NCBI RefSeq assembly: GCF_964204645.1
Contig: NC_134032.1
Span: forward strand, 10,782,275 to 10,846,274
Reading direction: 5' to 3'
DNA from: Tubulanus polymorphus
Lineage: Eukaryota > Nemertea > Palaeonemertea > Tubulaniformes > Tubulanidae
DNA length: 64,000 nucleotides
Shown: positions 1 to 28,562 of the stretch, one piece after another
How positions within the stretch are numbered: position 1 is the stretch's first letter
How the letters are laid out: every line of letters begins with the position of its first letter
Position numbers and translations under genes: made by a program
The notes under the pieces: generated by a model
Databases searched by the model: none
What the model was told of the DNA's origin: nothing
The model's input: only the letters and a program-made list of their open reading frames with translations

Positions 1-1770
1 CCGCTTGGCAAGAAGTTCGATTTCAGGATTGCCCCAGTGCTTGCACGTTGAGCCTCAGCCAAAGAGTCGGATCGCGACAAAAGGGGTGGCACATCTAGTC
101 TTAGATCGAGGTCGATGAAGCTGCCGAGCTAGATGCAACCTTCTAGATGTTCTCACAGATATTAGACGGATAGGACTAATATTTCCGAAGAATGAAATTG
201 GAATTCGTCGTCGGCTTCGGAAATTGAAACAATTCCTTCTCGAAAGATGTTCATCCTACTTTCCCGAAAACGACATCAAATATCAAATACGAAAAGCCAA
301 CTTACGTTTTTTTATCTATCAATTTCGATATCGACTTTTTTATTCATCCATTTATTACACATTTTTACACGAATTACTTCGAGGTTATTTTCATCCGTTT
401 ACAAAAGTAAATAAAAATATATTCATATACATATATGTATATATACATAAAATATCAATTACTACTAGAACCTGGTATAATATTCCTCTAATTAGTCGTA
501 GTTCGTTAAGTTTAATGAACTAAATATTCTCTTAAAATTTTCACATCTTGAATTGATATCTAATATGACTGTACATAGAATATCCGGATTATATATATAT
601 ATATATAAGTAGTATACACGAACATTTCATAAATACCAAAGTAAAAATGTTAAAACTGTTCAAAGCACTGAATTGTCAGTATCCGGGGCAGTTCCACAAA
701 AACGAAAAATTTAACACTTAAATCGATTCAATTTCTTCACTATCTAGTTAATCTTAACTTTTTGAGTGCGTTTACACTGCAGTACGGCGTATATATCGGT
801 GATGTACTTCACTAATACACCGCATTATGGTGTTTCGATGTAATAAGTAATTCGTTTCGTATCTCCATTAAAAGATGGCAGCACCCGTCAAACTTGGTGA
901 TATATTAGTAACCCAGTATGGCGGTCAGATAGTCAGCACAGAAAGGGTTTTATCGATTTAGCAGTTGAACTTTTTTATGAAACTGGGTGCCGAACAAACT
1001 TGATCATTGTCGGTTCATAATAAACTGTATATCCAACATACAAACATTAAAAAAAACAAATCATAAAATCCTAAAACACAGGTTTTGATATACATTTTTT
1101 GTTGATGAAAAAAAGTCTAATAAAATGAAGTCATCAGTTGCCGGAACTTGACACAAAGAATCCTGCTTAAATCCTGTAGTTAGGGGCCGTCAATGAAGTA
1201 TGTTTATGCAAAATTAGCCTATTTTAAAGCATCAGAATTTTTGCCTTGCCTCCCTGAGGATGCATGGATGCATGCAATTCCAACATATAATGGTCTATTT
1301 GACCCCTAACAGTGGACGGCTAGTAAAATTAAAGGGATACTTCGTATCGAAAAAAAAATGCAGACATTCTGGTTTACATTGCATGCCCCCCTCAGGGGCG
1401 ATCTGATTAACACAACCACTCCCCATCCCCCGCCCCTGACCATAATATGGTCATGGATATGTGCAAATTTCATTTATCCGGGTATTTCATTTTCTTAAAA
1501 CTATTCTATCGTTTCATGGAACCTCGCTAAAACAAATTACCCTTTTTCGTCCCAATATCCGACAAGTACCATGATACCAATTGTAATTGGGCTAATGAAC
1601 TATCACTTAAAAGACCGATTCCCTGAATTCAAAATAAAGTCTTCAATAAGAAATGGTCATTAAAGCTTAACGTGATTAATTTGCAGACAAGAACTTTAGG
1701 AGTCCGGTTTAAAAAGGTTCCACATAGGTATCCTAAAATGCAGTTAAATTCGAATGAATCTTGTAAAGGA
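1..1770. other. 3' flank of the zinc-finger gene, no gene seen
   Basis: AT-rich DNA beyond the last zinc-finger exon. I see no C2H2 exon, no convincing splice-flanked frame and no RNA gene. An inverted copy of a dispersed element at about 770-920 is listed separately. The short frame at 224-523 has no ATG (it opens at TTG) and is low-complexity AT-rich sequence, so it is not called. Confidence 0.5.
770..920 (-). mobile_element. Dispersed repeat, copy 1 of 2 (pair with 19255-19430)
   Basis: Reverse-complementing this stretch gives the same order of blocks as 19255-19430: a TTACTAATAT block, a TTTGACRGGTGCTGCCATCTT block, a GCGGTGTA block and a terminal GTGTARACGCACT block. The two copies are diverged and in opposite orientation, as expected of an old dispersed element. 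The internal GCGGTGTA motifs are partly palindromic. Family unknown. Confidence 0.5.
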
Positions 1771-1830
1771 GTATCGGCCAATAGGAACGAGCGTTACTGG
1801 CGGTATCAGCCAATAGGAGCGAGCGTTACT
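1771..1830 (-). repeat. Two-unit tandem repeat at the stop codon of zinc-finger exon D
   Basis: Two units of about 30-32 bp containing CCAATAGGARCGAGCGTTAC sit end to end, and the second runs into the stop codon of the zinc-finger exon ending at 1829. On the gene strand the repeat starts at the stop and fills the first part of the 3' UTR. The other three last exons have comparable tails. Confidence 0.7.
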
Positions 1831-2082
1831 ACATCGGCTGAATCGAGTATCCGAACGGCAAATCGAAGCCGTGACAGTGCCGCACGTGGCAGCGCAGTTT
1901 GTCTTTGCGCGCGAAACGTTTTTGACAGACCATACATTCGAACGGTTTGACTCCGCTGTGTATCAACAGGTGGCGCTTCAAGTTATACGCGTTCTTAAAA
2001 TATTTACCACATTGCGAACAGTATTGTACGACCGAGCCGGACGAGGTTTGACTGCCGAACATACAGGACTGCGGCTGTGCCC
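1829..2082 (-). CDS. Zinc-finger gene, alternative last exon D
   Basis: A short spacer after the acceptor TTTTGTGCCGTTTCAG leads straight into two C2H2 fingers, CSQCGKYF...H-x3-H and CMVCQKRF...H-x4-H, with linker HSGVKPFE. It ends HGFDLPFGYSIQPM. Helix contacts are about N,Y,N,R and R,D,K,C. The acceptor motif TGCCGTTTCAG is shared with exon C, another sign that the ends are duplicates. This is the most distal alternative end in the window; further ends beyond base 1 cannot be excluded. Confidence 0.8.
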
Positions 2083-5000
2083 CTGAAACGGCACAAAAAT
2101 ATATAATAATTACTAACTGATCAACATTATTAATTAATTACTATTCGGTGCTAATAAACTACGAATCTACTACGCTTCGTTTAGGGTTAAAAAAAAAAAT
2201 ATGGCTGCAAAGCAGTTATAATGGGTTTTTCTGCGTTGCCGGTTCACAACGAGGTAAACAAAGTTTCATTGGAATTGCGGCCATTATCAGTACAACGAAT
2301 AGGGTTTTTTTGTAGGAGCGCCACCTAGGGGTCAAAACACGTATTATACGTGCGGTGCAATACGGGTTACTAAATACAAAGTTTATTCATCTATACACTC
2401 CCCTGGTATAGATAACGATTTTCAAATTCTTTTGATTATAATAGCTACGTAATCGTGAACATCGACCCAGTACGGGGAGTTGGAAAAAAAATTGAATCGC
2501 AAGTGAAATCTGCGACTCGTGGAAATTGGACGAAAACATTTTGCAAATGAGCAGGCCCGATCTCTCAACGAGTTCATAATAGCTAAACGATCAAATATTT
2601 TTTGCTCCCATTGCTGAATACGGAATCATCATACAACGCCGCCGTACGAATATTGATTAGACTTTAGCTTATCTAATGAAATGCCCATTAGGAATGTTTC
2701 GGATATAAAAATACTGGACTCAGTCGCACGGTCATGACTTAATGCGCACAAGTTGTCGTCTTCAAATCACAAGACTTAAATCGTAAGTAGTTAGATCGGT
2801 TATGGATGTAACTTCTTAAATTCAAGCCATGACGGTGTAACTTCGCTAGCTCAATTCACGCATCTTAATTACGATGATCACTTTTGGATTTCTAACGGAT
2901 AAAAAAATGGCCAGCCAGCAGTCCCGAAAAAAGCGGGTTTAGCAGTCAAAGGATTAATCAATATCAATTATACAAAAAATACCGAATAAAAAAATGCGCT
3001 CGGCAATAAAACTTAACAACATAGAGTTCTTCGGCTAAAATTCTATCACTCGTAACATTCAATTGAATTTTTGATTTATTCAATAATGGAAAGGGCCAGC
3101 CAGCAGTCCGAGAATTTGCAAGTTTAGCAGTCAAAGGATTAATTGATATGTTATCGATAACACAAAATTTATACCAAATAAAAAAACGCTCGGCAAAAAT
3201 GTACAAAACACGAGATCTCCTAAAATTCAAGAACTTTTTCAGAAATTGTGGATTTATCATATCAGTCAATAAAACATGAGGCCCAACCGGCAGTCCTGAG
3301 AAATGGTGGAATTCGAGACGATGGGTTTATCGATTGGAATTCGCGAGCGGAATTATTCAGGGTTAGCCGGTACGGGATAGCCCTGCGGCAGCTCGAATCC
3401 GTGCCGCGTGCGTATGTGCACGCGCAGGTGATCCTTGCGTTGGAATCGCTTCTTGCACACCATGCACTCGAACGGTTTGACGCCGGTGTGAATCAGCGAG
3501 TGCCGCGTGACGAGCTGTTTCGACGAGAATCCTTTACCGCACGTCGTGCACGCGTACGACGTCTGAATCGCGAACACCGCGCCCGAGTTCGCGCCGCCAA
3601 CCTTCGTACGCGCGTTACCCTTACTCGCCGGCGACCGCGTCCCGCCGCGTCCTCGACCCTTCGCGGCGACCGGCGTTGACCGATTCCGTCGCGTCGGCGT
3701 CGACGTCAAGTTGTAGTCGTCGTAATCCGGTTGCCGGTAGTCGGTCGACTGGTCGATGTTCTCGTACGCGAAGTAGTCGGCGTTACCGGGAAACACGGGT
3801 TGTTGTTGCTGTTGCAGATGACCGCCGTAAATATCGTCGTCGAAGTCCGGCGGCATCTGCTCCTGCAGTTGTTGCTGCTGTTCGATTTTCAGGCCGTCAG
3901 GTAAACCTGAAACGGCAGAAAATAGAACAGGTTACAACAACAACTTACACGTCACCCGAGGACTTGGAAACGTCCGAGCAACCCTTTTCGCTCGTTTACG
4001 CGACTTCGGGCGTCTGGTTTTATTACCGCGGGAGGTTTAGAAAATCACGTCGCGAATCATAAAATCTTATCGAATTTCGAAATACACCGCGATCACGTAA
4101 CAATCAGGTACCGGCGACACAGCGCCATCTGGCAACCAGCCTACTGGATGGATGACGCGCGACTTAATAACAGCAGGTCTTACGCGCCGAATAAACGGTG
4201 GCCGTCGTGATCTCACGAGAGTCCGCGCGATAAAAATGCCCTCTTTTCTCTGCTGCTTTTATTCCACGAAAATATCTTCAATTTTTCCGTCCTCGCAACA
4301 TTTGCTTGAAAGCTCAATACAGCATTGATAAATCCAACAAGACAACCACCTAAACATCCATCCATGCTTACGGTGTGGATCTTCACCAAACAAGGTCGTA
4401 CGTGAACCGCCCCCAATGATTAAGGTGCGCAGGGATAACATCCTAATGGAGTCCAGTACGGGTTAAAACCCTCTTAGTAGGTTGCATGGGACTATCCCGG
4501 CTCACTTTGAACACAGTAAGGGGTTCCCCACGTAGTAGACACGACAGGACTAACCCCGCTCACTCGGTTGACTGTACAGGACTAGCCCTGCTTATTGAAT
4601 AGACTGTACGAGATAAACCCCGCTCACGGACAGTACAGGGTTCCCCTCGTAGTAGGCTGTACGGGACTAGCCCCGCTCACCGAGAAGACAGTAAGGGGTT
4701 CCCCTTGTAGTAGACTGTACGGGGATACCCCGCTCACTGAGTAGACTGTACGGGGATACCCCGCTCACTGAGTAGACTGTACGGGGATACCCCGCTCACT
4801 CAGTAGACTGTACGGGGATACCCCGCTCACTGAGTAGACTGTACGGGGATACCCCGCTCACTCAGTAGACTGTACGGGGATACCCCGCTCACTCAGTAGA
4901 CTGTACGGGGATACCCCGCTCACTCAGTAGACTGTACGGGGTAACCCTGCGGCAACTCGAACCCGTGACACGAGCGTATGTGAACGCGCAGGACGTCTTT

Positions 5001-8000
5001 GCGATTGAAACGTTTTTTGCACACCATACACTCGAACGGTTTCAGCCCGGTGTGTATGAACATGTGACGCGTGACGAGTTGACGCGACGAGAATCCCTTC
5101 CCGCAGGTGGCGCAGTTGTACACGACGGCCGTCGAGTATCCGCCGGTCGCCGCCGCCGCTGAACTCGAGGAGGTCGGAAGCTTCGTCGGTGTTTTGTTGG
5201 TTTTCGTGCCTCTTCGGTTATTTTGGCGACTGCCGACGCCTGAAAAGGCACAAAAACCGACATATTAATCCGACGGAGCAAATTACAAAAAGCCGCGCAG
5301 ATTGTTCGTTTTTCGAGGGGGGAGGGTTAATGAATAATAATAATAATAGTGTCGATATAGCGCAGGTATCCTAACCAGTCCAGTTCAAACCCGTTAATTT
5401 GATATCATTACCCCTCGCCTATAACTCTATTTTCTGTATCAGTCATCTCTCGCTGGGGAGAAGTTACATCATCCCAGCAACTACCGGGCGCATCTATCTA
5501 AGGAGTCATCTATCAGGCCAGGTACCCATTTACTCCTGGGCGGATAGAGGCAATGAGGATGTCTTGCCCACTACGGTAATATACGGGTTCGAACCCACGA
5601 CCAGGCTTCCCAAGGAGTCAAACACTCTAACCACTCAGCCACACCACTTTGAGGGTAAGTAGATTGTCACCGATTCATACACCATGGTGCAGTCCATATA
5701 TTTCTATGATTTTTTCTTTGTGGGAGGCGGTCACAAACCTACAAGTCCGAGCACAGGAATATTCTAATCCGACAGAAATATAGCGATATAAGGAGACGGA
5801 GCCATTTCTTACTTTTTGTTGGCGGGAATATCACGAGGTCTCCTAACGTCGTGGATACAATCATTAGAAATGCCGGGGATGTATTTGGCAGCTATGAAAT
5901 GTTATCGACGTTTGGGGAGGGGATATTCCTCGTCGTAACAACTCTAACAAAGACCATAGACAAACCGTCTTCAAGGGGCGGATTCAGGGGGACAGGTGAG
6001 ACTTGTACGAGTCCATCTTTTTTCGAGTACCCTTTCTCGTCGTGTCAACAAAGATAATTGGCGCATTTCAGTACGGCAGTGCGCCTTATATTTCCCTCGT
6101 GTGACAAGTCCTTGAAAATTTGCACCTGGATCCGTGCGCACTCTTGAAATTGCAAAAACAAACAAACGATAAAATCGTGAAAAATTATATTATATAAATT
6201 TATCTTTGATTATCGTCGAATCAGCTAAACGTACATACATCGTACTATAACGATATATCCATACATAGAATATTTGATTATTTTTTTCCCTCGATTTTAA
6301 GTTAATGTCGATTACAACGATTTCTGAACTGGAAGAATTTGCCTACTTTTTGCCCACGCGGCAAACACAGCCTGCCGGCATATACAACAACAAAAAACCA
6401 CTCGCCCAATTTTCATCAAAATTTTCTTTAAAAACTCATGCACAATCACATTAAAACAACATATTTACGCTAAATCATCTCGTTTAAGTATCTTGACTGC
6501 ACGCGATTCTAAATTACACATTTGACCAGAGGTCCCTCCCAGATATCAAAATCAGGTAAAAGGTGCGATCACACGTAGACGATTTCGCCCAGGTCAAACT
6601 GGTCCGGACTAGGCCGAATTAAATTTGGCCCGTGCTCAAGTAGAGAGCGCATTCACGTAAATGTAAATTAATACTTTGTCGCAGTTACTTCCAGAACTGG
6701 TTACCATTCAGATGGAGTAATTCAAAAGATACCTAAGTTCGGCACGGACATCTACAATACCAGCCAATTTGACCAGGGTAAGAAATGCTTACGTGCCATC
6801 GCAACCAAAGTCTTAACCGTTTTAAAATAAATGCAAGTTCATTTTTTACTGACTAAAATATTACCAAATAATATCTCGACCGCGTAACTATAGCTCATGA
6901 TCACAGAAAGCCTATCGATTCTTATGGAATTAAAACGAACAACGAACTGATCGGTCAAACCGCGACGAATTTTAACATCTAGCATCAACGGTTACCTCGA
7001 AAATTTAATATCTGATTAAAACAATTCAACTAAAACTACAGATTAACTGGAATAACTTTCTAGAACTGATCCGCCAAAACCACGGCGAATTTTAACATCT
7101 AGCGTTAACAGTTACCTCGAAATATTCAATATCTGATTAAAACAATTTAACTAAAACTAACGATTAACTGGAATAACTTTCTACAAAAAAATTGCGTCTC
7201 ACGAAACATTTTCTCTTTTTGAGAAAAGAAAAACACGTATTTAAAAACTAGCAAACGTAATAATAACATAAAACATCAAGCCTTGCAATCGAGCAAATTT
7301 TTATGATAAAATCAAATTTTGATTCAGTTAAGTTCACGCCGACACATTTAGCGTAGCCCGCTAAAATTGAACAGGAAAATCAACCACGCCATAACACACA
7401 CACAACCACGCATACTACACTGTCCATGAAATGCGCTGGTAATTTCAAAAATTTTCATAAAAAACAAATCACCGCGAGACATTTTCCCCATGATTTTTCG
7501 GTCTGACGGGTATAAAAAAATAATCACATTCTGGTCGTAAATCATGTAAAGCTCTTCGTAAAAAACATCAATGCACAGCGTACGAGAGCGGAGCAAAACT
7601 AGGGAATCCCCCATGTATCAGGGAATTCCCTCAAAAATGGGGTTCCCGACTTACACCCGGGAAATCCCTACACTTAGGGGTTAAAGAATACCCCCTCCAC
7701 AGAACCAGAGAATAACCTTTCCATCGGGTATTCCCTAAAAAGGAATTCCCAGCCAATACCAGGGTATCCCCGCGACGAGGCACCAAACAGCGATCAGTCA
7801 GTGAACCAGAACGTATATCAGGGAATTCCCTTGAAAACAGGGATTCCCCAGCCAACACAAGGGAATCCCCTGCATTGAGGCATCAAACACTGATCGGTGC
7901 TACGTGATAACGTAAAAAAAAACACACAATGAATCGTTCAGACATGATACTCAGCAAAGCCGATGAGAGAATCTCTCCATACACCTGGAAAGAGCCTCCT

Positions 8001-9105
8001 ATCAAGGGGAATCCATCGTATCAGGGGGGGGGGGGGTGATCTGGGAGTTCCATTAGACTTGCAGCATATCCTTATGCATACGATTCATGTGCACCTCGAG
8101 ACCGGACGTGTTGCGGAAGCACTTCGTGCAGAAACGGCAGCTGAACGGCGCGATGCCAGGATGCGTACGCAGGTGCCGCGTCAAACTCGACTGCACCATG
8201 AACGCCTTGTCGCAGAACTGACACGCGTAACGCAGACGCGGATCGCGCGCAGGCGACGACGACGCCTTCACGCCGTACACGAGCTGCTGCTGCTGCTGCG
8301 CGACGGCCCCGTCCGCGTAGACGTCGTACTTAACGTCGATATCCGGGAGTTCCTCTTTATAATCCTCGTCGTCTTCATCATCATCGACGGCTATAGGCAC
8401 GGGATCACCGTCATCATCATCGCCGTCGATTACATCCCCGTAATCGTACGCGTAATCGACCTTCTGATTACCGCCCGAGGTCGTGCGACCGCGTGTGTTG
8501 TAAATGCGACTCGATGCCGACCCTTCGACCTTAACACCGAGCGAACCTTCGACCTTCACCCCCGACGACGATCCTTCGACCTTCACCCCTGACGACGGAG
8601 GCCGATATTTCTGCGGAGTCGTCGCGACGTTATTGTTGTGATAACTCGAACGGTTTATGACGGGCGGTTTTACCGGAGTACGCGCCGCCCGGCCCGGCGT
8701 GAGACGATGCGGGGAACGGGCGATACCGCCGGGCGTACGAGGAGACCGCGCCATTGCCTTCGACGGCGATGGATCGGGCGTCCGAAAAATCTTCGCGTCC
8801 GCCGGCGTTTTGCGATCGTCGTCGACCGCCCAATCGTCCGTCGACGGTTTCGCCGGTGACGACTGCACGTTTTTGATCTCGTGTCCGGTGATGCCGTAGT
8901 TGATGAACAAGCGGTCGCCGAAGTTCGGCGGCGTGCTCTCGTCCTCGACGATCTCGATGTCGTTATCGACGTCCGCCACCGGTGGCGCCGGCGGTTTAGC
9001 GTCTTCCGTCGCAGATCCCTCATTCCATCCGGCATCATCTGCAAAATACGGATGGAAGAGGAGACTTAGAACAGAAGTTGCTGATGATGTTGTTGATGGC
9101 GGAGG

Positions 9106-9136
<31 letters not shown>

Positions 9137-10283
9137 TATAAATTAAAATCATTCCTTTAGATCATCTTTTGTTAGTAGCAACGGTAGCAAATATACATCG
9201 TTAATAGAAGCACCGTTAAAAAACTAGAAATAGACGGAAAATCTTGAAGTGCGAGACCTGATTTTCCATACTTTTTCCATAGCCATAGAGGAAAACAAGC
9301 AACAAAATTTCCATTGCCTTTTAAGGGCGTGCAAAAAAAATCGATTCCCATTTTTGAAAACCTTAGAAGACCCGTCCGACCCCTGTAAACCAATGAACAA
9401 CAAATCTCTCAGATAAGTCAGGGAAAAGAGGAGGATGAACAAGGGCAGATCCGAGAACGAATTTAATCATAGTACCAACAGTAAAAAGGCTGGTACTATT
9501 CAATCGAAAACGAGATATCCTCCGAGAAACACGAACAACTGCGATTATACCCGAACTCGGTGTAGGGTGATTCGTTAATGCAAAATCTAATGCGTCCGGC
9601 GCTACTATAGAAATAATCCTATAGATACTTAATGCAGGTAGGTCGAATACTATAGAAAAAATCCTATAATTAATACAGGTAGGTCGAACCAAGATGAAAA
9701 CCTGCAAAAGACATCATAAACGGGGATGAGAAGATTTTCAACCTGAAATCGTTCACCTTACGCCTCTTTAGTCTATCCGTTTTAACAATGACCCATCCGT
9801 CAAATTCTGTCTTTTAATTGACTACAATCTCTCAAACTCCACCAACTTTATGCACCAGTCGATATCTATGCTTATATACGCGCGTTCAAATTATCGAGAG
9901 TTCATTCCAGTTAATCGTATATGCAAATTCCGCACTGAGTTTCGTTAGAATTGAGGAAGATTTTAAAAAGTCGAGTAAATCTCGCGATTTCAACCGATAA
10001 CGCGTCGCTTTGTCGCGAAGAAGCCGTCGTCTGCCGCTGTCACACGGGATTAATACGCAACGCGCACATCCGTGATCGCTCCTTGATCAGTATTGTATGG
10101 TAGCGAACGATTCTCATCGTCGCTCCGACCTAGTGGCCGTGTGCGCACGCGGATCCAACTCGTGGTCGTCATGGCAACGATATGTCAGTCGCCTCTCTCT
10201 CTCTTTGTCTCAAGGGAGGCGTTCTTTGATTTTCCACCAGAACAGGTTAAATATCGCATGGACATATCGTATCTGATTAAAAG

Positions 10284-10315
<32 letters not shown>

Positions 10316-13300
10316 GGGGGTTCAACAAACATCGACCCACAATAAGACTAGAGTGCGAAATCGCGAATAACGTCTTTCGAAAAAATAGATACCTTTTTCT
10401 TGTTTCTGCTGAGCTTAAAAAGTTGACCCTGCCGGCCGCCTATATACCCCTGTATACATTACTTTCTTAAAAATTATGATCGAGCTTATCATAAAAGACG
10501 CGCAAGTCGTTATAGAAATGAACTGGTGACAAACTTCATTGCGGTTTACGTAAGTGACCCAGTCCATTAGGAGAAACTTTAAGGTATCATTTTTTTAGCC
10601 AGAAAAACGATTTTCAAGCCTTGAAAAATCGTTTATAGCGACTAAGTGATAATCCAGTTGTGTCCATCTGAAAAAATTTCACACGGGAAAAAAATATCAC
10701 GAAACTTCCACCACCATTTTGAAAACCAGCGAAACGCGACTCTTTCACTGTTTTCCGGACGACTTTCCCAGTAAGAGAAATGGTTCATATATTTTTACAA
10801 GTACTACTACACCAGCCAGATTTTTCTATCATTTCAGGTTGCCAAATAACCTGAAATATCTAAATAAATGCAGTGCAGGAACCCATTTCGGAAAAACTGA
10901 AATGGCCAAGGACTTCGGGTTGAAAATTTTTTAACCCGTTAAATATGTTGCGTTTTCGAACGCATTTCGGAACCAGGTCCACCGATATCATGACACTATA
11001 TGCCACGTACCAGTATCGAAGCTAGACATATTTCACTTAAATGACGGAACCTTGTGTTATAAATAAATAAGACCATCATCCCATATAAGATGAAATAAAT
11101 CTACTTTTTAACTGGACACGACAAACAATATCGGTTCATCGTTCCTCCGTATATATACCCTGCATATATAGATCGACACGTGCACGCTGGTCTCGGACGG
11201 TTCGACCGTACAAACTCGTCGAAATATATCTTACCGTTAATTCCCGACATTTCTCATTAAAAACACGCAACATATGTCTGTGAACCAAATGCCCAATGAG
11301 AATGAGAGTGAGAGGAAACAAGGAATGGCTTTCATAAACGAGAAATGAGGCATGGCTTATTCAGTTGTTCAGGGATAAGGGATGCGTTAAGGATATCTTA
11401 TCAACCATTTATAAGTTATAAGTCATGCGACTAAGGCAGTCTCAACCTCTACCACAGACTCAAATCTATGAATCATATTCAGATTAAGGATAAACAATTA
11501 TCACTAGACGAAATTATCTACCCTCGATGATTCACAACCCGTAGAGGGGCTGCGGCCCACCTCGACAGGGATTCGAACCTGATGGCATATCTACACTCAG
11601 CCACGGCGTGAAACCCTGCCGCACTCGACCGAGTGCGCAGGTACATAAGCAGATAATGTCATAATTGGCCAAACAGAAATCCCATAATTATTTAAGCCCA
11701 GGTTTTCTGATAGTTAACCCGTCAAATTTGCTTTCAGCGATAATACAACGAGCAATCTGATCGGTGCGACAGGGTGAAAAGAGAACGCAATAACTCGAAA
11801 TGGAGTGCCACACAACGCCACCAAGCAAACTACAATTACGCACAACAACCGATTTGCAAATAGCGATTATTATCATCCATCAGAATCGAATTAAGTTTGT
11901 TGATATTTGAAGATTTGTCTTTAACAACTGAACTTTTGACCTCCCTCAATGGTGCTTACATAGGCCCGCATCTGAGTGTGGCCACTTTCCGGCCATTTAC
12001 AAATCAAAAGTTTTCAATGTGATCAAACTAAATTCCCTGAGCTAACCAGTTAAGGAATACACGCGGTCAATAGCTCTCATCCAAACTCCCTCAGTTTTCC
12101 AAGGTTTTTGAGGTCTGCGGCCACCCAGTTATTAATAAGGGCAGGCTTAAATCACTCAGCCACTACCCCTATGAGGAAGGTCAGGACCGTTGTGTTAAAT
12201 CTTGAAATATCGACTTGAATATACTTTCGTGAGTGTTGTTGTCTGATCTAGGCGCATATTATTTCTCAACGGATTTTTTCGAAATTCTGGCATTTTGTAG
12301 GATAATAATCACATCTAAGCAATTCGAAGTGAGTCGTACCAATCGTGCCGATTTGAGGTTCAACAACCGATTAACTCGGCCTTAATCAAATTCACTTAGT
12401 ACTGGTTATGCTCCATGTAGCCTGGCTTCTCACTGGAAAGAACAGAGCTACAAAATACTCAGGAGCAATTTTCAGAGCACTATACGCAAAATCAGAAATC
12501 AAATAGAGACGTGTTTTTAATCTTTTCAATTATCGTCGGTTTTCATGTCTCATATTCTCAAATCCCAGTCATTGTGCTTTTACATTCAACAACAGGGCCG
12601 GTTGCATAGTAACGGCTTAGACTTAAGACCAGTCTTAAGGCCAGTCTACCAACTTGGTTCTATAGCCAATCTAACACCTTAAGACCAGTCTTAGAATTTA
12701 AGACCACTTTGGACTTAAGTCACGACTGTGCAACTGGGCCCAGGACTCATTGCCACAGTCATGAGTTCACTATCGCGTTGAAATTATAAGCTATCACAAA
12801 AGGTTCAACTCCGACTTAAAATTTATTCAATTTCTTCATAAATCTAGTGTATCTTAAACGGATTTAGGAATTAGCTATTTTAGTGAAAATGGTCTCCCCG
12901 AGTCAGATCTTATCTCGGATCCGTGGAACTAGATCGAGAGGAATATATTTTCAACATCTCTGGTTATAAATTTTGAACCTCCCGCGCGATTAATACGACT
13001 CGTCCTCAGCAAAACGACGACGAAGAATCGAACGAAGGAAAATAAATCCGAGAAACTTACCGGTCGAATGCGAACTAGGACCGGGCATCGGTTGACCCGG
13101 CGCGCCATGGTGGTGATGATGATGCCCCATCAACTGATTCTCGTAGCCGGCCATCATGCCCGGTTCGACTTTGATAATCTCGATCGGATCGTCGATATCC
13201 TCTTCGCCGTCGTCGGCGTAGTTATCCGCCGCCGTCGCCGACGAGTCGTGGTGATACTCCGGTTTCGGTTCGAATATCTCCGTGTTTTGTAACGGCGCCG

Positions 13301-14851
13301 ACACGTCCGTTGTCTCGCGGCTATCATCGCCGCCGCCACCGGTCGGTATATACGACTCGTAGCTACCGTCCACGGGCGGCGCCACCGTGCCGTCGTCCGT
13401 CCGTCGTTGCTGCTGCTCCGGTTTGACGTCCTGCTCGGAGTTCTTAATGCTCAACAACGTCGACTCGATCTCCTCGGTCGTGAACATTTCCGCCGACGGC
13501 CGCACGACGCCGCCCGCGTCGCCGACGCCGTGCGCGCCGGACACGCGGTGCTCGCCGTCCTCGGCGGCCGGCGATACTGACGGAATAGACGACGGAATAT
13601 TTGCGGCCGCCGCGTTCGGCGACGACGACGAAGAATGATTAGGCGAAGACATATTGTTACTGAAAGACAACTGAGGCCGGTGTTTCGGACTCATCATTTG
13701 TTGGTGTTGCTGCTGATGCTGCGGTGATGGCATCGACATGCCGTGTTGCTGCTGCCCGGTAACCGGCGACATCGCCATTTTTTGCGGTGTCGACGACGGA
13801 GATTTGCGCGGAGTCATTTTTTGCGGCGTCGTCTGTTGTTGCATGCCGCCCGGCGAGCGATTCGCGTACGGCTGATGGAGCGGTCGCGGTCCGACGGCGC
13901 CGCCGCGACCACCGAAGTTCATTTGCGCGGCGCGATTCTGCGGGGGAATCGACGACATCATCGCCGGCGCGGTGCCACCGCCTCGCCGACGTTTCACGGC
14001 ACGTAAAACGTTCTGCGCGACCGCTTGTTTGCGGTTCATGTCCAGGCGACGTTTCGGCGAGTTCTGCTGGTGCGGCATCGCGACCACCATGCAATCGTCG
14101 TCCGCTAATCCGCCTTGACCTGTCGAGGGGCGAGAGAAAACAATTCATGTGTAATAGGACGCGACTTTGACCGTATCCAGCGAGGGTATTAGATTTTTCT
14201 TTGGGATACGTAGAACTCAAATGACAAGGTGGCCACTTATTTGCAAATTCCCTGATTTTTCCTTGTTATAACAGAAATTTCCTGAGTGAATCCAAAGAAT
14301 TTCTTCGTTTAAAATGCCGATAACAATTCATTCATTTTTCATTGAATCACGTATTGATAAAGAAACAAGTGGTCAATAATATATAGGCCTATCTTAATTC
14401 CCAAAGTTTTCTTATAAGTTTTTTCAGCAAGATTTGTCCCTGAGTTTTTTAATGTGAATCTGATTCCCATGAGTTTTCTATAGGTTTTCCAGGTCAGTGG
14501 CCAGGCTGTTTAATCGAAGATTCAATTTTGGTGCGCTATCCAGTGAGAAGGTACTATATTTTTTGTCAGGAAAGTTAAAATTGAAATGTAACCATCCCAA
14601 AAGAAATTTCTTAGCTTAGAGGAATCCTGAGTTCAGTTTCTTTTCCATGAAAAGAATTTGACCACTATATTCGTTTTCATGCAATAGTTATACGTACTTT
14701 TAACAGTTTGTCTCCGCGACGACCAACGAAACCACGTATTGTCATCGACCGTGACGACGATTTCGTCGAGCCAATCCAGATGGCGCCGCAAACAGAGTTT
14801 CAGCTCGTCCTCCCGGACGTGGAGCCCGACTCCTTCCATGAACAACACCAT
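1829..14851 (-). CDS. C2H2 zinc-finger transcription factor with four alternative last exons (whole gene model)
   Basis: Nuclear DNA-binding regulator by family inference. The model is a common N-terminal exon (14851-14698), a common linker exon (14119-13061), then one of four last exons: A 9038-8053, B 5239-4920, C 3906-3353 or D 2082-1829. The linker donor leaves one base of a codon, and all four acceptors leave exactly two, so every combination stays in frame (732, 510, 588 and 488 residues). Each last exon has a pyrimidine-AG acceptor, two C2H2 fingers and its own stop. This resembles the alternative zinc-finger ends of insect lola or broad, but I see no BTB domain in the window. Choice of last exon presumably changes target sites while keeping the linker. 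Four separate genes are unlikely, because none of the four has its own start region. Confidence 0.8.
2083..3352. other. Intron/3' UTR space between last exons D and C, with a 184-bp tandem repeat
   Basis: No coding exon seen. From about 2900 to 3305 there are two units of about 184 bp (each with GGCCAGCCAGCAGTCC, then TTTAGCAGTCAAAGGATTAAT, then CGCTCGGCAA) and a partial third unit ending just before exon C's stop. The rest is AT-rich. Exon C's 3' UTR therefore starts in repeats, as for the other last exons. Confidence 0.65.
3353..3906 (-). CDS. Zinc-finger gene, alternative last exon C
   Basis: After the acceptor TTCTGCCGTTTCAG the exon encodes a Gln-rich then Asp/Tyr-rich spacer, a basic segment GRGRGG and two C2H2 fingers (CTTCGKGF...H-x3-H; CMVCKKRF...H-x4-H) with linker HTGVKPFE. 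It ends HGFELPQGYPVPANPE. Helix contacts are about S,Q,L,R and R,D,H,V. Only finger 2 position 3 differs from exon B among the predicted base-contacting residues, so B and C should prefer related but not identical sites. Confidence 0.82.
3907..4444. other. Space between last exons C and B
   Basis: No exon with acceptor plus C2H2 pattern. CpG content is moderately high to about 4200. The reverse frame at 4259-4441 has no family match I recognise. Confidence 0.4.
4445..4942 (-). repeat. 31-bp minisatellite grown from the end of exon B
   Basis: Seven near-identical 31-bp units start at 4714, 4745, 4776, 4807, 4838, 4869 and 4900 (ACTGTACGGGGATACCCCGC plus CTCACTSAGTAG). An eighth, at 4931, is the coding end of exon B (codons for VQSTE and the stop). 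From 4445 to 4713 older, degraded units carry GGGGTTCCCC or similar. On the gene strand the array is 3' UTR, and every fresh unit contains the palindrome GGGGTATCCCC. There are no spacers, so this is not CRISPR-like. Confidence 0.9.
4920..5239 (-). CDS. Zinc-finger gene, alternative last exon B
   Basis: A short Thr/Ser/Ala spacer follows the acceptor TGCCTTTTCAG. Two C2H2 fingers come next, CATCGKGF...H-x3-H and CMVCKKRF...H-x4-H, joined by HTGLKPFE. It ends HGFELPQGYPVQSTE. Helix contacts are about S,Q,L,R for finger 1 and R,D,V,V for finger 2. It is a close relative of exon C, so the two arose by recent exon duplication. The final codons and stop are themselves the first unit of the 31-bp minisatellite that continues to about 4445. 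Confidence 0.82.
5395..5650 (-). mobile_element. tRNA-derived SINE
   Basis: Read on the minus strand from 5650 it opens with a tRNA-Ser/Leu-like head: GTGTGGCTGAGTGGTTAGAG (box A region), then GGGTTCGAACC (box B) about 40 bases on. A body follows that contains CAGGAGTAAATGGGTACC. That body resembles the conserved central part of widespread invertebrate SINEs; the family assignment is from memory. It is not a functional tRNA: there is no matching acceptor stem, and the body continues past the T-arm. Confidence 0.7.
6565..6662 (-). mobile_element. Partial foldback element (same family as 38931-39100)
   Basis: Begins GCGATCACACGTAGACGAT and continues with TTTGGCCCGTGCTCAAGTAGAGAGCGC, matching the reverse complement of the element at 38931-39100. 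The far terminal repeat is missing here, so this is a truncated copy. Confidence 0.6.
6948..7188 (+). repeat. Direct repeat, two units of about 121 bp
   Basis: Both units contain GCGAATTTTAACATCTAGC (first unit with GACGAATTTT), GTTACCTCGAAA, ATCTGATTAAAACAATT and GATTAACTGGAATAACTTTCT in the same order. Diverged at a few per cent. No coding content. Confidence 0.8.
7580..7905. repeat. Diverged hairpin-rich repeat downstream of exon A
   Basis: Many short palindromes of the form GGGAATTCCC, GGGGTTCCC, GGGATTCCCC and GGGTATCCCC. At least two longer units are recognisable (about 7741-7800 and 7841-7903), each ending with GCACCAAACAGCGATCAG or GCATCAAACACTGATCGG. It lies beyond the stop of exon A and resembles in kind, though not in exact unit, the GGGGATACCCC array downstream of exon B. 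Confidence 0.65.
8024..8036 (+). repeat. Poly-G run next to exon A stop
   Basis: Thirteen consecutive G, 16 bases from the stop codon of exon A. On the transcript strand it is poly-C. Confidence 0.95.
8053..9038 (-). CDS. Zinc-finger gene, alternative last exon A
   Basis: The longest alternative end, 328 codons. A long acidic/disordered part (TPPNFGDRL, TPGGIARSP and similar) contains three tandem GVKVEGS units, each a SUMO-type VKVE site. An Asp/Glu-rich tract and a Gln run follow. The C-terminus has two C2H2 fingers: CQFC...H-x3-H and CRFC...H-x4-H with an atypical linker PGIAPFSC, ending MHKDMLQV. Predicted helix contact residues (-1,2,3,6) are V,S,S,R and N,S,G,V, unlike the other three ends. 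The acceptor is ATTTTGCAG before 9038. The exon is bracketed by G runs on the plus strand at 8024-8036 and 9123-9136. Confidence 0.8.
9113..9136 (+). repeat. T10-G14 run upstream of exon A acceptor
   Basis: Ten T followed by fourteen G, about 75 bases upstream (gene direction) of the exon A acceptor. Prone to polymerase slippage and possibly to length error in the assembly. Confidence 0.95.
10285..10314 (+). repeat. AGC microsatellite
   Basis: About ten tandem AGC triplets in an intron of the zinc-finger gene, followed by CGGGGG. Not in any supported coding frame. Confidence 0.9.
11540..11790 (-). mobile_element. tRNA-related SINE, second family (copy 1)
   Basis: On the minus strand it has GCCGTGGCTGAGTG (box A-like) and CAGGTTCGAATCCCTG (box B). 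A shared body follows with CGCACTCGGTCGAGTGCGGC, GGGATTTCTGTTTGGCC and a tail region GATCAGATTGCTCGTTGTAT in the order expected from 42966-43200. The two copies match over most of about 230 bp. Degenerate relatives are visible at about 12090-12180, 15235-15330, 40305-40410 and 57440-57480. Confidence 0.65.
12595..12741. mobile_element. Foldback MITE, family with GGGCC-GTTGCA ends (copy 1)
   Basis: About 147 bp, nearly palindromic. It starts GGGCCGGTTGCATAGT and ends TGTGCAACTGGGCCC, with internal AAGACCAGTCTTAAG palindromes. No coding capacity. The copies at 35907-36046 and 60859-61006 share both ends and the internal motif. Probably a non-autonomous DNA transposon. Confidence 0.75.
13061..14119 (-). 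CDS. Common linker exon of the zinc-finger gene
   Basis: 353 codons of low-complexity, Gln/Ser/Pro-rich sequence typical of disordered linkers in transcription factors. Near its start is a basic stretch (SPKRRLDMNRK, AVKRRRGG) that looks like a nuclear localisation signal. Two candidate SUMO sites of form psi-K-x-E follow: VKPE and, in an acidic context, IKVE. A run of six His lies near the end. The acceptor CCCCTCGACAG precedes 14119 and the donor ACCG|GTAAGT follows 13061. The entry phase matches the donor at 14698. High CpG content sets it apart from the surrounding intron. There is no recognised folded domain. Confidence 0.8.
14120..14697. other. Intron 2 of the zinc-finger gene
   Basis: AT-rich, GT...AG bounded (donor GTACGT at 14697, acceptor CTCGACAG before 14119). 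Nothing else seen. Confidence 0.6.
14698..14851 (-). CDS. N-terminal coding exon of the zinc-finger gene
   Basis: 51 codons starting MVLFMEGVGLHVREDE, then a hydrophobic/charged segment with LRRHLDWLDEIVV. The exon probably begins at an acceptor TTTTTCTAGCAG before 14904 or CACTCAG before 14860. An in-frame TGA at about 14881-14886 means translation cannot come from further upstream if the first acceptor is used. The first ATG (14851) has G at -3 and G at +4. The donor AAAA|GTACGT leaves phase 1, which joins in frame to the linker exon. I do not recognise the sequence as BTB, BEN, SCAN or any other N-terminal domain. If the downstream acceptor were used, the frame would be open to a further upstream exon that I cannot find. 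Confidence 0.55.
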
Positions 14852-14904
14852 GACTCTTTCCTGAGTGTCTCTCGATCAGATGTAAATCTGGCCTGCTAGA
14901 AAAA

Positions 14905-16099
14905 TATCAATACTCAATGAAAGCTCATGACTAAAAAGGAAATTAGCGCTCCAGGCCCATATTTTCCATTGTCGGTCATTTAAGTTTCAAGTGTTCAGAG
15001 TTAAAATTTGTTCATTTTCAGTGTTTGGCTTCGACAGTCCACCCTTTTTCTAAACTTTTAAGCCCTAATAGGTATTTTCCGAATTATTTGATATGGTATG
15101 ATCCTGTACGAACCTACCACACCTGCTTGAAGTGGTTTTGATTTTGAAAATGGAAATGGAATTTAAGCCCAAGTTGGGCGAAGTGTTGAATTTAAATAAT
15201 TATTCGCTTAAACCAAAGCACGCAAATAGAGAGAATGCATCCTCCCCCAGCAAGTATTCGAATTCCTGTTGGCTACGAGACACGCCACGGTACGAAACCC
15301 TGCCACAATAGACTGAATGTGCTGGATCACTCCAAGGATAAACAGTGATCAAATATTGGATTTCTATCTATCTTCTTCACTGAGATCCAAGGACATCAGT
15401 CGATCTGTCTTGTCAAACTTTTGCATTTGCAAATTTTGATATAGAAAATACTAAGTAACCATTAGCAACTAATCCAAAAAGCTCTACCGATTCAATTTTA
15501 GTAGTTGAATAAATCTGTCTAACCCGTATAATATGTAGGCTGGTAGATGAATGAAGTAGTTCCACAAGTGAATTTCATATGATAAAATTTATTAAAATGA
15601 AAGCACATTTCAACCGTCAAAAGCTATATCATCAAGTAAACAAACCAAATATTTTGACAAATACTACATTCAATAGCAACTGAAAATATGAGTTCTTAAC
15701 TCTATTTGAAACTGGACCATCCGCGAAGTCAATTAAAAAAATTAAGTTTCATAATAGGCCTAAAAGAAAAATAATTCATCATGCCTAAACTTGTACTGCA
15801 ATAAATAATTTCAAATTCTAAGTTATAAAATTCTAATGATCAATATTCCAATAACCCGATTAGAGCCTTTCAAAAACCTATTGAATTCGACATCAACAAA
15901 GAGGTTCACCTAAGGTTCATCGATTCAGGGTTCAATAATAATGGCGTCGACACAATGCACCCCGATGCAGCAACTAGCAGCCATGATGGCGAACCCAGAT
16001 GTCGTTTAGCCCCAGTTCAAAGCGCCCACTTCACACCCGATTTACAACCTTTTCGGCCCAGAATAAATCGCGAAATATGCATTAAATGATTCTCAATAC
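14905..16099. other. Intron 1 of the zinc-finger gene (proposed)
   Basis: AT-rich DNA without a supported exon. It contains a degraded SINE head near 15235-15330 and one copy of a dispersed repeat of about 150 bp (15345-15490) whose partner is at 17940-18080. Confidence 0.4.
15345..15490 (+). repeat. Dispersed repeat, partner at 17940-18080
   Basis: Shares TTGGATTTCTATYYATCTTCTTCACTGAGAT, AATACWAAGTAACCA and TTAGTAGTTGAAT-like blocks in order with 17940-18080, which lies in a MED30 intron. Same orientation. Unknown family. Confidence 0.6.
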
Positions 16100-16380
16100 C
16101 TTCGACTGCGTAACTTCAATAATCGGGATCCGTTTTCGTCGATCGATCGCGAGATATTCCGGTTAACTCGAGCGGATAGTTCGGCAGATGCTGCGCGCCG
16201 TCGACCATAATTAACATGGAGCGCTCGTTCGCGGCGTCAAAACCTAGTACATCAACATAGGCGAAAAGACGCCGCGCACCGACGCGCCAGAACATCAATT
16301 AAGTCGCGTCTAAAACCAGAACTCGCGCTAATTGATCAGTCACCCCTTAATACGAAACGTCGGTTTGGGGGATATATATA
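16100..16380 (-). promoter_or_regulatory. Candidate core promoter and non-coding first exon of the zinc-finger gene
   Basis: On the minus strand a TATATATA lies at 16380-16372. About 30 bases downstream begins a CpG-rich stretch that ends at 16100 with CGAAG|GTATTG, a plausible donor. No frame crosses the stretch from an ATG into the next exon, which fits a 5' UTR exon. Its place between MED30 and the first coding exon, with CpG content above its flanks, is the main support. There is no transcript evidence. Confidence 0.35.
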
Positions 16381-16384
16381 CAAT

Positions 16385-17554
16385 TTCGTTTGAATCATAT
16401 CATAATGTGTCATTATTTACCATCGCAGAACAATCAAGGTGCATCTAGGATTATTTTGAGGGGTGTTAGTAGCTGCATATTGAAAATGGTACTTAATTTG
16501 AAGAAAAGGGCTGATTAGGAATGGGCTCAACTGCAAAACATTGGTAGGGGTTTTGGTGGCCTTACCACCACAGAAAATTGAAGAAAAGAACAAAAAGGGG
16601 CTCTTCTGGACATTAACAGAGGGCATATCGATTCATTTTTTGTCTTTTTAAAATTTCTTTGCAAAAGAAATTGTTATACTTTTTGGAAGTCAAATTTTGA
16701 TGGAGTCCACCCCTAAATCCACCCTTGAAAGACCTAGCCTATACCCAGAAAGCCTCTTAGTTTAAGTATATGGTGGCATTTATGATGAAGGTACTCAAAT
16801 AACCTGTCTTATATTGGCTGCTATGATCATATGTTATGTTAGTGGAAGTTTCTAAAAGCTTAAAATCAGTTTTCCCAATTTAGTTAATTGTTGTAAAAAA
16901 TATCAATGCTCTCTTAATCCATCTACCGGTAAGCGCACTTTTAAGTCGCCCTGATGGCATTGTAGAGTGGATAACAGCATCGGGGCTGTAGATTACTTGA
17001 CCACTTGTGTGGGTTCAATTTGGACAGTCCCACATTACCGGGAATTAGGATGCTGTTCTACAGTTATGAGGATTTAATTTGACGGGATCCAGTTTCACAG
17101 TTGTGGGCTTTTAATTTGCACAATAGCGAAACCAATTTGCACAACAGTTTTGTGGGTTTAATTATCTCCTGAACCAGTTCTACGGCAAAACTAAAGAATA
17201 GCCTACTCCAAACACTCCGAACAAAATCCTTCCAAATCAAAAGCACAGCAATGCGTAAATGAATATCTTTATTTCATTTCAATTTCATCCTTTGACTTAA
17301 ATACATAAACCATAAAAAAATAAAATCCATTTTAAATGATTTTCAATCATGAGTTCTTACGTAGAAGACCAGACTGGCTAGGTCATCAAAATGTATCGGT
17401 ACAACAATTTCACTTGTCTCACGGTGGGCCCTGAGCCCTAGACTGTTTATATTCTAGAATGATCAGTTTCTACAAACTACATTCTGCGCACGCTGTAACC
17501 ATTACCTAAACCATCTCTCAGTTCCAAACTGCATCAAAAACTAACGATTGCGCA
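16385..17554. other. Intergenic/3' region of MED30
   Basis: Between the proposed zinc-finger promoter and the MED30 stop. A candidate AATAAA for MED30 lies on the minus strand at 17268-17273. No other feature seen. Confidence 0.5.
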
Positions 17555-20500
17555 TCAAGTCTTGCGCATCGCCATCATCGTATTAATCTCCCAAACGATC
17601 GTTCGCAGTTGATCGATCACTTCTTTCATTTGACAATTCTTCATACGTAGCTGCTGCAAAAATCAAGTTTTAAGTCGTATTCGAAAATTTCCGCGTTAAT
17701 TAGTTTAAATCCCACTATATACAAAGTTCAAAAAAGATTAAAAGCAAATCTGATTCATCAAAAATTAAAATCAAAAGACACGACGTTTAGAACTCCTGCT
17801 AGATAAGAGATCACCTGAAGACGATTTCCAGTGAAATTTCGAAACCTTTCCGTATTTTGATTTTAATCTTTGAGAAATGAAATTTGCTTTTAATCTTAAA
17901 AATTCCGTACACAGCGGATTTAATCTGATTATCTAAACAGTCATCAACTGTTGGATTTCTATTCATCTTCTTCACTGAGATTCAAGTACATTAGTTGATC
18001 CGACATGTCAAAATTTTGTAGATATCGAAAATACAAAGTAACCACTGGCAACTAAACCAAAAACCTCAAAGGGTTCAAATTTTGTTAGTCGAATGAAACT
18101 ATCAAATCCATGTGAACTATAGATGAATAATATTCTCAACGTCAGAGTCTGACTATTCTAAACTATTTCCGAGTTATTTCGATTTAATTCGCGGAAAAAA
18201 AATTAATTCATCGTTACCTCCGCGTATTCCTTTTTCTCCTCGGTGACAGCGAACTGCAGCAACGTCGACTCTACTTTAACGGAAGGCTCCGAATTTTCGA
18301 GGGGTATCAGATTCTGCATAGTACAAAATAGACGAGACTTATTTCGGCGGATGAAAACACCTTTTCGGATCAATAGAACAATTTTGGCATATCAACAGTT
18401 GAAAATTGTTTGAATTAATTACACGATAGATTTCAGGACAGATATGCCAAAAATTTTCATCGATTTCAATGAATTGATGTAAAGCAGATTGATTGAACAC
18501 ATTTTAGACAAATAGAACAATTTTTGGCATATTACCAGTTGAAATATTTTGGGATAAACGAATCAAAAGGTTTCTTCTTTTCCCTCATTCAACTTGAACA
18601 AAAAGTATCTTTTTTGGTAATCAAAACCTTCAATACAATACAGTGAAAGATCGATCAAAGATCGATGAGTCTAACTGCAGTTTAGGTTAACCGTTTCACT
18701 TTTCCCGATCGATACGAACCTCGGGCGACGTTTCGTCCAACATGCCGCAGTTTTCGTTCACTTTCGTGTAGATCAATCGCAACTTTTTGAACGTGACGTT
18801 GATCGTGCGGAACAACTCTTCGATTTTCGCCTTGCGATCGTTGTACATCTGCGTCGAATTCGGCTGCGTGTTCGGCACCTGAAATAACGCGATTGAAATT
18901 TTCGCATTTTCGCTCTACACCGCGGTCTAAATACGATTTCTTACACCCCAAAAGATGAAACCATTCAAGCCGAACAATAGATTGCCCATGGGCAAAGCGA
19001 TAACCTTGAAAACTGGAGCTTGCTCACCAAGGGCATAAACAAGACAAGTTTTTTCAAACGATATCATTAAATTTTATATCCATTCACACTATCATATCGG
19101 CAAAAATGGTAAAATAATTTAAGTAAAACCCGCTTAACCCTTTCAGTGCTGGCTATTTAATATCCTAAAGTGCTGAAGATAATTTGAAAATTCTGAAAAA
19201 TTCCACCCTCGTGTGTTGAATAATGGGAATAGCACTATAGTGCGTCTACACCCTGGGGCGGTTGATCGTTAGTTACTAATATTTCACTATGTTTGACAGG
19301 TGCTGCCATCTTTCAAGAGAGATAATTAGTAATTTCTAATTAAATCAATACACCGCAGTGCGGTGTACTAGCAAAATCCATCACCGATTCGTACACCGCT
19401 CTGCGGTGTAGACGCACTGAAAGGGTTAATCCGAATCAGCTTAATCCAAATTTTGGTCTGATCTGGATAATATTTGCAGTCCATATGTTCATAAATATAC
19501 AAGAAAATTACTTTCAATCCGCAGCAGATTTCCCGTAAAGCGGATGAATTTCGTTGGTCCCAAACGATCCGGATCGAACGGATTCTACCGTAGAACGTTT
19601 CGGTTTTTCGTGAAACTGGACCTGACATAGGTAACATACGGAGGTCACCTAGGCACCAGCCGCACTTGGAGACGAATACCAATTTCTTCGTCCCTTTTTC
19701 AATGAAACGCGGGCAGCGCGCATAAAACCTTACTATAGAATTGGACCAAGTCATTTAAAACTCTATCAACTTATAAATTCTAGAGAGAACATGTCCGGAC
19801 TTAGTTCTTCGTATCAGAAAAGGCTTTAAATACTTTTAGAACTATTGTTATATTTGCCATCCTGTTAAAACAATTATTGTAAATTTGCACTTTTTGCTTT
19901 AAGCAAATTATTTTTTGTGGGCAATAAATATGAATGAATGAAAAGGCTAGAACGGTCACCTGAGTGGCTTTTAACTGGTTGCACATCTCCGTAGTTTTCT
20001 GCACGATATCTTGCACGGTTTCCTGACCGATGCGACACAGCGAAGCCGTGTTGACCTCTTTCGTAGGTGAAATCATACTCGACTGTTGAGTTAACGCGGG
20101 CGCTGTCGAAAATCCTGCTTGTACGGCATTACCTTTTGAAATAACATTAATGAGCTTAATCAATTGTTAGTTTAAAACACACGACGCAGGGAAACAAGGA
20201 AATACAGAAACACAAAATCAAACATGTTTGATGCCAGAAATATTGTTTCCCCAAACAATGTTTCAGTTTCTTGTTTCTGGTAAACGCACACTACACAGGA
20301 AATATGTTTCCGTTCCCTGTTTTCATGTGCGTTGCTGGAATTTCATAAAACCAGATACAGATATTAGCTCTCCTCTAGTCTCCCCTATCTATCCGGCATC
20401 GCCTCTCCCCTCTCGACTCAACCCTTCCTGGCTCTAGTTAGTTACCTAATCGTTGGTGGTAAGCTTTTTATAATCGGATGGGCGTTTGTGAAAATATCCG

Positions 20501-26799: not shown

Positions 26800-26849
26800 T
26801 CTTACGACTATCTTTCTTCTGGCCGACGTCACTTCCGCCGTAAACACTG

Positions 26850-27719
26850 CAAAAAGCGGTACCTGAAAATATCATACGAGAAAATCACAGATATATGCGA
26901 TCAGCTACGATCTCACTTTGATGGTTTCGACGAGACAATACTCGCAACTGGTGGTAAAGTTGGAACTGATCAATGCAGCAAAAAACAAGGAAACGAACTT
27001 TTAAACGCATGGATAATCCTCACGTCAAACACCTCATATAATCCTATTATTCTATTCTTTACATCTAAAACTGCTCCACAAAATGCTGGATTGGAAAGTA
27101 ATCAGTCCTAATGACTGAACGCGAATCGTTTGACATTTAAACCGTCCATAGCAAAGCTGGATTTCTATTGGAAACGCACAGTTTCCCTCACTAATACAAT
27201 TTGTCGCGAAAGTCAAATTGATCGACTACACATCCTTAATGAATAGCTGTTGATTAGCTACGATATTTACCTTCCATCGTTAGATAATTAATGACTTCCA
27301 ATAAATATTCATTCATCAGTCATTTTACAGGAAATTACACGAAATTACGGATCCATTCAAAATATGCATCTACGTGTAAAAAGACGAATTATGAACCCAC
27401 TTTCGAAGTTGGTGTTATTTTTCGCTTAGGTTAACAGGTTCTTTTACACCATATTGATGAGGTAGGGTTCCTAAATTGCATCGAAGATCACCTACGTACC
27501 ATATTGTCACATTGGAAGGTCTTGAAGTTGCGGGGTTAGAAGGTACATTCAACAGCACTGTATGAGAAGGGCCGAACTGTAACTCTATGTCGGGAAACTA
27601 ACTCCTGATGGTTTTGTACATTGAGAAGGGGAGATGAAGAAAAATAAGTTTAAAATAATGTCATCAGCTAACGCTTGACGCAGAACAAATGGAATCGGAC
27701 TGACATTACCTGAATTGAT
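26850..27719. other. Spacer between GPCR 1 and GPCR 2
   Basis: No gene or clear repeat seen on either strand. Confidence 0.45.
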
Positions 27720-28514: not shown

Positions 28515-28562
28515 GTAACACCACTGCCCGCCTGATCGCTTTGTCTTCTGATTCAAATGCAA

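Follow-up and report, generated by a model that had tools for sequence, protein, structure and literature searches.

A nemertean C2H2 zinc-finger family with an undescribed N-terminal domain and probable alternative terminal finger exons

We analyzed a 64,000-nucleotide stretch of the genome of Tubulanus polymorphus (assembly GCF_964204645.1, contig NC_134032.1, positions 10,782,275 to 10,846,274; hereafter the window), whose minus strand carries a gene made of one N-terminal exon, one linker exon, and a series of downstream zinc-finger exons. This window gene very probably represents a C2H2 family in which an undescribed N-terminal domain of ~45 residues is combined with alternative terminal exons of the lola type, one end being joined at a time by splicing in cis. 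Several lines of sequence evidence point this way: phase-1 junctions throughout the gene, ends that look terminal and all nine of which share the strand of exon 1, five of nine ends without an in-frame ATG, a domain exon that recurs at 48 loci with fingers downstream in 18 of 19 scattered stretches, joint duplication of the parts, conserved linker motifs with an excess of psi-K-x-E, and divergent contact residues. Below, C8 denotes the contig that carries the window, and coordinates without a prefix are window positions. The parts of the gene are as follows.

14698..14892 (−): exon 1, with a short 5′ leader, ATG at 14851, the N-terminal domain MVLFMEGVGLHVREDELKLCLRRHLDWLDEIVVTVDDNTWFRWSSRRQTVK, and a phase-1 donor after 14698
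13061..14119 (−): linker exon, phase 1 to phase 1, with the conserved basic block KRRLDMNRKQAVAQNVLRAVKRRR, EIESTLLSIKN, and the psi-K-x-E motifs DVKPEQ and IIKVEP
8053..9038 (−): end A, predicted terminal exon, two C2H2 fingers, contacts VSSR/NSGV, without the GFELP tail
4920..5239 (−): end B, predicted terminal exon, two C2H2 fingers, contacts SQLR/RDVV, tail GFELPQGYPV
3353..3906 (−): end C, predicted terminal exon, two C2H2 fingers, contacts SQLR/RDHV, tail GFELPQGYPV
1829..2082 (−): end D, predicted terminal exon, two C2H2 fingers, contacts NYNR/RDKC, tail GFDLPFGYSI
C8:10781780, 10780904, 10780264, 10778154, and 10776854 (exon starts; −): five further ends, contacts SSHR/RDYH, TRHR/RDNN, RGHR/RDAC, KFNR/RDNT, and NFNR/RDTA

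The exon plan, its phase, and its stops are read directly from the DNA. GTACGT directly follows the end of exon 1 at 14698, and GTAAGT directly follows the end of the linker at 13061 (donor score 5.5; acceptor and donor scores come from a simple scheme of our own). Exon 1 and linker together contribute 1213 coding nucleotides up to 13061, which leaves the linker donor in phase 1, and the finger frames of ends A–D begin in that same phase, at acceptors 9038, 5239, 3906, and 2082, and each closes at a stop. A first-pass annotation of the window had proposed this fit between one linker donor and four acceptors, with two C2H2 fingers and a stop in each acceptor exon; both points held, the fingers being found by pattern and, in a scan of these four ends, as Pfam zf-C2H2 matches, and the helix contacts it predicted for them were reproduced. 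Its count of four ends was too low: five further same-strand two-finger ends lie in the adjoining 20 kb beyond window base 1, their best acceptors all in phase 1. The gene total is nine, and two fingers by pattern, phase 1, and a terminal stop are present in 9/9. The exon boundary placed earlier at 14904 was found instead at 14892, or at 14895 if an alternative AG is used. Every one of the nine shares its strand with exon 1 and lies downstream of the linker, at most ~21 kb from exon 1, and six of them carry a tail of the form GF(E/D)(L/V)P, which end A and the last two ends lack. An in-frame ATG stands between acceptor and first finger in four of the nine ends and in none of the other five. 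End B runs into a 31-base minisatellite (4709–4941; 7.5 copies, 98% match) at its last codons and stop (4922–4920), so that the end-B protein terminates within the first repeat unit.

The linker is conserved in its motifs. A block of the form KRR(L/F)(D/E)...VAQNVL(R/K)AVKRRR is common to the window gene, a locus at C8:15968 kb, and the genes of a C8 cluster described below, and EIESTL-x-SIKN is alike in the window gene and the cluster genes. The motif psi-K-x-E, which we take to be the SUMO consensus, occurs 37 times in 26 linker-like frames, compared with 4.3 times in shuffled sequence; these frames are the longest finger-free frames of at least 200 codons 3′ of a domain exon, and many are near-copies from the cluster.

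The first-pass annotation had described the N-terminus as a short unrecognized segment. It indeed has no Pfam or PDB match, but it is a recurrent domain of ~45 residues, found at 48 loci on C1, C2, C3, C4, C5, C7, C8, C9, and C11, and is the defining part of the family; the recurrence supports the earlier suggestion of a distinct family. A genome search with the N-terminal 101 residues gave 52 matches at E <= 1, some of which are additional hits to the linker portion. A profile search over the fetched DNA confirmed 37 domain loci, one extra profile row at E 52 being dropped, and 11 more loci, some weak, came from the window-query search together with searches from three divergent members; the profile passed 11/11 of these. 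As the profile derives from these same relatives and was run on small sets, its E-values are not genome-wide, and the value for window exon 1 in the 37-locus set (1.2e-19) reflects this small search space. Searches in the reverse direction, from the three divergent members, recovered window exon 1 at E 5.9e-8, 8.8e-7, and 0.006. Both tryptophans of a W..W motif are present in 37/37 rows and in 10/11 of the later loci, L072 having neither, and the best donor after the domain is in phase 1 at 36 of the 37 loci, window included.

Known domains did not account for the segment. Across 29 aligned domain rows, a Pfam scan gave only stray single-row matches (PAH, SSXT, and ABC_membrane; best PAH, E 0.046), and a PDB sequence search with the domain gave a single match at E 1.5. 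A domain tree covers 28 loci out of 48, omitting seven cluster copies, the copies at C7:17708 kb and C1:8024 kb, and the 11 last-fetched loci; the 29-row alignment is made up of the 28 tree loci plus C1:8024 kb. The tree has three well-supported inner branches of 25, and in it the window copy has a short end branch and is nearest to the cluster copies. In the alignment, all 11-residue windows with starts at residues 9 to 29 show a hydrophobic periodicity closer to helix than to strand, and we read the domain as a putative amphipathic helix followed by D-x-T-W-x-R-W-x3-R.

Fingers accompany the domain across the genome. Among 19 scattered stretches covering 21 domain exons, 18 have C2H2 fingers downstream of a domain exon on the same strand, L037 being the exception; L032 holds three domain exons with fingers 3′ of just one within the stretch, and only single fingers were matched in L033 and in parts of L029 and L041. 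Where a stretch has all its domain exons on a single strand, the opposite strand showed no fingers. The best acceptor is in phase 1 for 30 of 35 finger frames in the scattered stretches, including 6/6 in L042, a stretch picked for its fingers and not for a domain. Long arrays headed by the domain occur as well: one scattered member (C3:4064400–4071400, L036) contains four finger frames in succession, with 9, 8, 13, and 7 fingers. A second small cluster lies at C7:17697000–17718000 (L032 and L042), with domain exons on both strands, two plus and one minus, and six finger ends on the minus strand (five two-finger, one single-finger), the best acceptors of which are all in phase 1.

The largest concentration is on C8 itself, where 15 domain exons, six minus and nine plus, occupy ~0.23 Mb (11.41–11.64 Mb). 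This cluster was sampled as 95 kb in full, 2 kb at each of ten domain exons, and a further 10 kb, and its remaining ends are known only as finger matches among the matches listed. On the plus strand, the domain exon at 11496543 heads 35 frames of at least two fingers (11501.3–11536.4 kb); most frames have two fingers and others three to seven, and no other domain exon interrupts the series. The 10 kb fetched past this array (11540001–11550000) contains no finger matches. The neighboring minus-strand array, headed by the domain exon at 11491916, has 10 finger frames and is a shorter inverted copy of the plus array. Domain exon, linker, and ends are collinear between the two, at ~72–89% identity in aligned blocks, from which it follows that the three parts duplicate as a unit.

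The finger pairs of the ends are diverse at the residues expected to read DNA. The 66 terminal finger pairs carry 64 distinct contact sets, and in 68 module pairs at least 72% alike, contact positions differ in 297/544 cases and other positions in 718/2857, a comparison that is indicative only, as the pairs are nonindependent and the invariant zinc ligands are counted with the other positions.

We pooled 67 array ends from the window gene and two cluster stretches. The best-scoring acceptor is in phase 1 for 9/9 ends of the window gene and for 44/46 and 9/12 ends of the two cluster stretches, 62/67 overall, and for 42 of the 43 ends with an acceptor score of at least 8. In finger-free open frames taken for comparison, the best acceptor is in phase 1 in 196/534, or 41/118 at the same score. 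No donor scoring at least 3 occurs between the last finger and the stop in any of the 67 ends, which therefore look terminal; serial splicing of the ends is accordingly unlikely.

These observations fit a scheme in which a single promoter region between the upstream gene MED30 and base 14892 would give rise to a common pre-mRNA. The neighbor that sets the 5′ bound is

17555..18878 (−): last coding exons of MED30 (PF11315, E 9.7e-33), same-strand upstream neighbor, outside the gene

and its coding end at 17555 leaves 2.7 kb for the promoter and any 5′ exons. Exon 1, carrying the domain, would be joined to the linker with its basic, nuclear-localization-like block and SUMO-consensus motifs, and the linker donor would then be joined in cis to one of the nine alternative terminal exons, each bringing a separate DNA-reading head of two fingers together with a stop and a 3′ end. 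The domain may serve as a shared interaction module, the basic block as a nuclear signal, and the SUMO motif as a modification site. One locus could thus yield nine regulators with common partners and modification but different targets.

Several results weigh against this scheme. Control finger frames, from loci without an N-terminal domain in the stretch, are also in phase 1 in 9/13 cases (13 frames from 14 control loci, of which L066 gave no two-finger frame; three of the frames are near-copies, all in phase 2). Phase 1 being frequent among control finger exons, phase agreement alone is weak evidence, compatible with alternative joining but no proof of it, and phase 1 loses weight as a mark specific to the ends of this family. 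The best acceptor is out of phase 1 in 5/67 array ends and in 5/35 finger frames of the scattered loci. An in-frame ATG precedes the fingers in 37/67 ends, which could therefore have a separate start, and is absent from 30/67. Poly(A) hexamers between a stop and the next end are not enriched (44/67, compared with ~39 expected from shuffles). Nor was a firm fold obtained for the domain: a single-sequence AlphaFold2 model is weak (predicted local distance difference test 68.5, predicted template modeling score 0.45), its short helix between strands conflicts with the helix-like hydrophobic periodicity of the alignment, and a PDB fold search with it gave no match at E <= 0.001 (best E 1.2). The fold prediction supports no claim made here.

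The alternative that survives best, though we consider it improbable, is trans-splicing, in which the nine ends would be separate transcription units joined in trans to a common 5′ part, as has been reported for some lola isoforms. The anatomy would look identical under this arrangement; the nine ends nevertheless lie on one strand, downstream of the linker and close to exon 1, and for nearby ends on the same strand cis splicing suffices.

Marginally less probable still is that each two-finger exon is an independent small gene with a 5′ exon of its own, only one or two ends belonging to the N-terminal exon. The ends with an in-frame ATG, the poly(A) hexamers that do not mark each end, and the general frequency of phase 1 in finger exons all suit such genes. 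Against them stand the 30 ends that have no in-frame ATG after the acceptor and the collinearity of N-terminal exon, linker, and ends between the two neighboring arrays. Moreover, neither in the window gene nor in the 35-end array do the domain searches list an extra N-terminal exon among the ends, other kinds of 5′ exon not having been searched for.

That the gene is a BTB-ZF gene with an overlooked BTB exon is very improbable, even though the anatomy of its ends matches lola and broad: exon 1 has an in-frame TGA in its leader (14878–14876, 27 bases 5′ of the ATG), MED30 closes off the sequence 2.7 kb upstream, and the sole C8 match among 57 in a genome-wide BTB search lies at 722646, 10 Mb from the gene, in a search run exon by exon that intron-split domains could escape. 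A Pfam check found no BTB in the common part of the window gene (exon 1 and linker), as the first-pass annotation had claimed, nor in the 29 family rows. One survey likewise reports that a TTK-type (lola-type) BTB motif was not found in Annelida and Mollusca and describes the TTK-type BTB as arthropod-specific (PMC11426971).

The cis-spliced scheme thus invites comparison with lola, broad, and mod(mdg4), of which mod(mdg4) has some 30 isoforms. The predicted likeness is a common N-terminal part with many alternative C-terminal exons, most of them carrying zinc fingers, and the lola- and broad-like anatomy noted at first pass extends, as read from the phase-1, stop-ended finger exons, to all nine ends. 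Unlike those genes, the window gene has no BTB and instead a domain without a Pfam match, and in this genome up to 35 end exons follow one N-terminal exon, in many genes of the same plan. The window gene would work like lola but, having no recognizable BTB domain, is not a member of the lola BTB-ZF family. For lola, one account gives 20 predicted isoforms, produced by cis- and trans-splicing from one BTB-containing common region (PMC1947980).

Expanded finger families with a lineage-limited N-terminal domain offer a second comparison. In cyprinid fish, FiNZ-ZNF genes are described as having a greatly multiplied 28-residue N-terminal domain on its own exon and one finger-array exon (PMC10547256). 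A short N-terminal domain exon upstream of finger exons, in a greatly expanded family, is shared with the genes reported here; the present domain differs in its ~45 residues and W..W motif, a distinction drawn from the FiNZ description and not from its sequence, and several stop-ended finger exons follow each N-terminal exon in the window gene and the cluster. ZAD-ZNF genes of insects and KRAB-ZNF genes of tetrapods also pair an N-terminal domain with fast-diversifying C2H2 fingers in expanded families. The likeness is that of an N-terminal domain on an expanded C2H2 finger family; the ZAD, KRAB, and SCAN Pfam models gave no match in the 29 domain rows at E <= 1, and to our knowledge alternative terminal finger exons are not the usual plan of ZAD- or KRAB-ZNF genes. 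A literature search found no account of the domain or of lola-like ends in lophotrochozoans, which is weak evidence of novelty since most subscription papers lay outside its coverage.

The first-pass annotation had also suggested a lophotrochozoan regulator, and the Hox cluster of the genome (C6:5.32–5.63 Mb) supports that taxon: among its genes are a Lox5-like one, in which KLNGP comes shortly after the homeodomain, and two that have UbdA-like peptides, features we take to be lophotrochozoan marks. The assembly yielded no COX1. With moderate confidence, we favor the broader view that a lophotrochozoan C2H2 family with an undescribed domain evolved the plan of one front and many tails independently of insect BTB-ZF genes and scaled it to a cluster, with 15 N-terminal units, one of them with 35 tails, DNA contacts diversifying faster than the rest of the fingers, and a combinatorial pool of regulators that may share one oligomerization module. 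If so, alternative zinc-finger tails would be no peculiarity of arthropod BTB genes, the plan having arisen at least twice on unrelated N-terminal domains, and one could ask whether it is selected for by neuronal identity, as for lola, or by the kind of arms race with mobile elements that has been proposed for KRAB and FiNZ genes. The 35-tail gene would exceed the 20 predicted isoforms of lola and reach the scale of mod(mdg4). The domain also provides a sequence signature for a C2H2 family unseen by Pfam, and gene models that divide the ends into separate two-finger genes would mask the plan.

Other features lie in and around the gene. By eye, tRNA-like segments GGTTCGAA can be read in its introns at 5380–5660 and 11540–11640; they are perhaps tRNA-derived short interspersed elements, and ARAGORN found no tRNA gene in window positions 1–20000. 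Beyond the last finger pair, ~1.6 kb downstream on the same strand, there is a homeodomain exon (L001:2357–2722, −; E 3.7e-21) that presumably belongs to a separate gene. Two similar von Willebrand A-type frames flank the zinc-finger gene, one at 55990–56361 in the window (+) and one at C8:10767379–10767747 (−, in L002); the window frame was scanned against Pfam and matched VWA at E 3.5e-9. Elsewhere in the window, several rhodopsin-type G-protein-coupled receptor frames occur on both strands at 24660–34858 and 58155–59336 (7tm_1, 7TM_GPCR_Srw, and Srsx matches, the frame at 58155 falling under the Pfam cut-off), perhaps a local receptor expansion.

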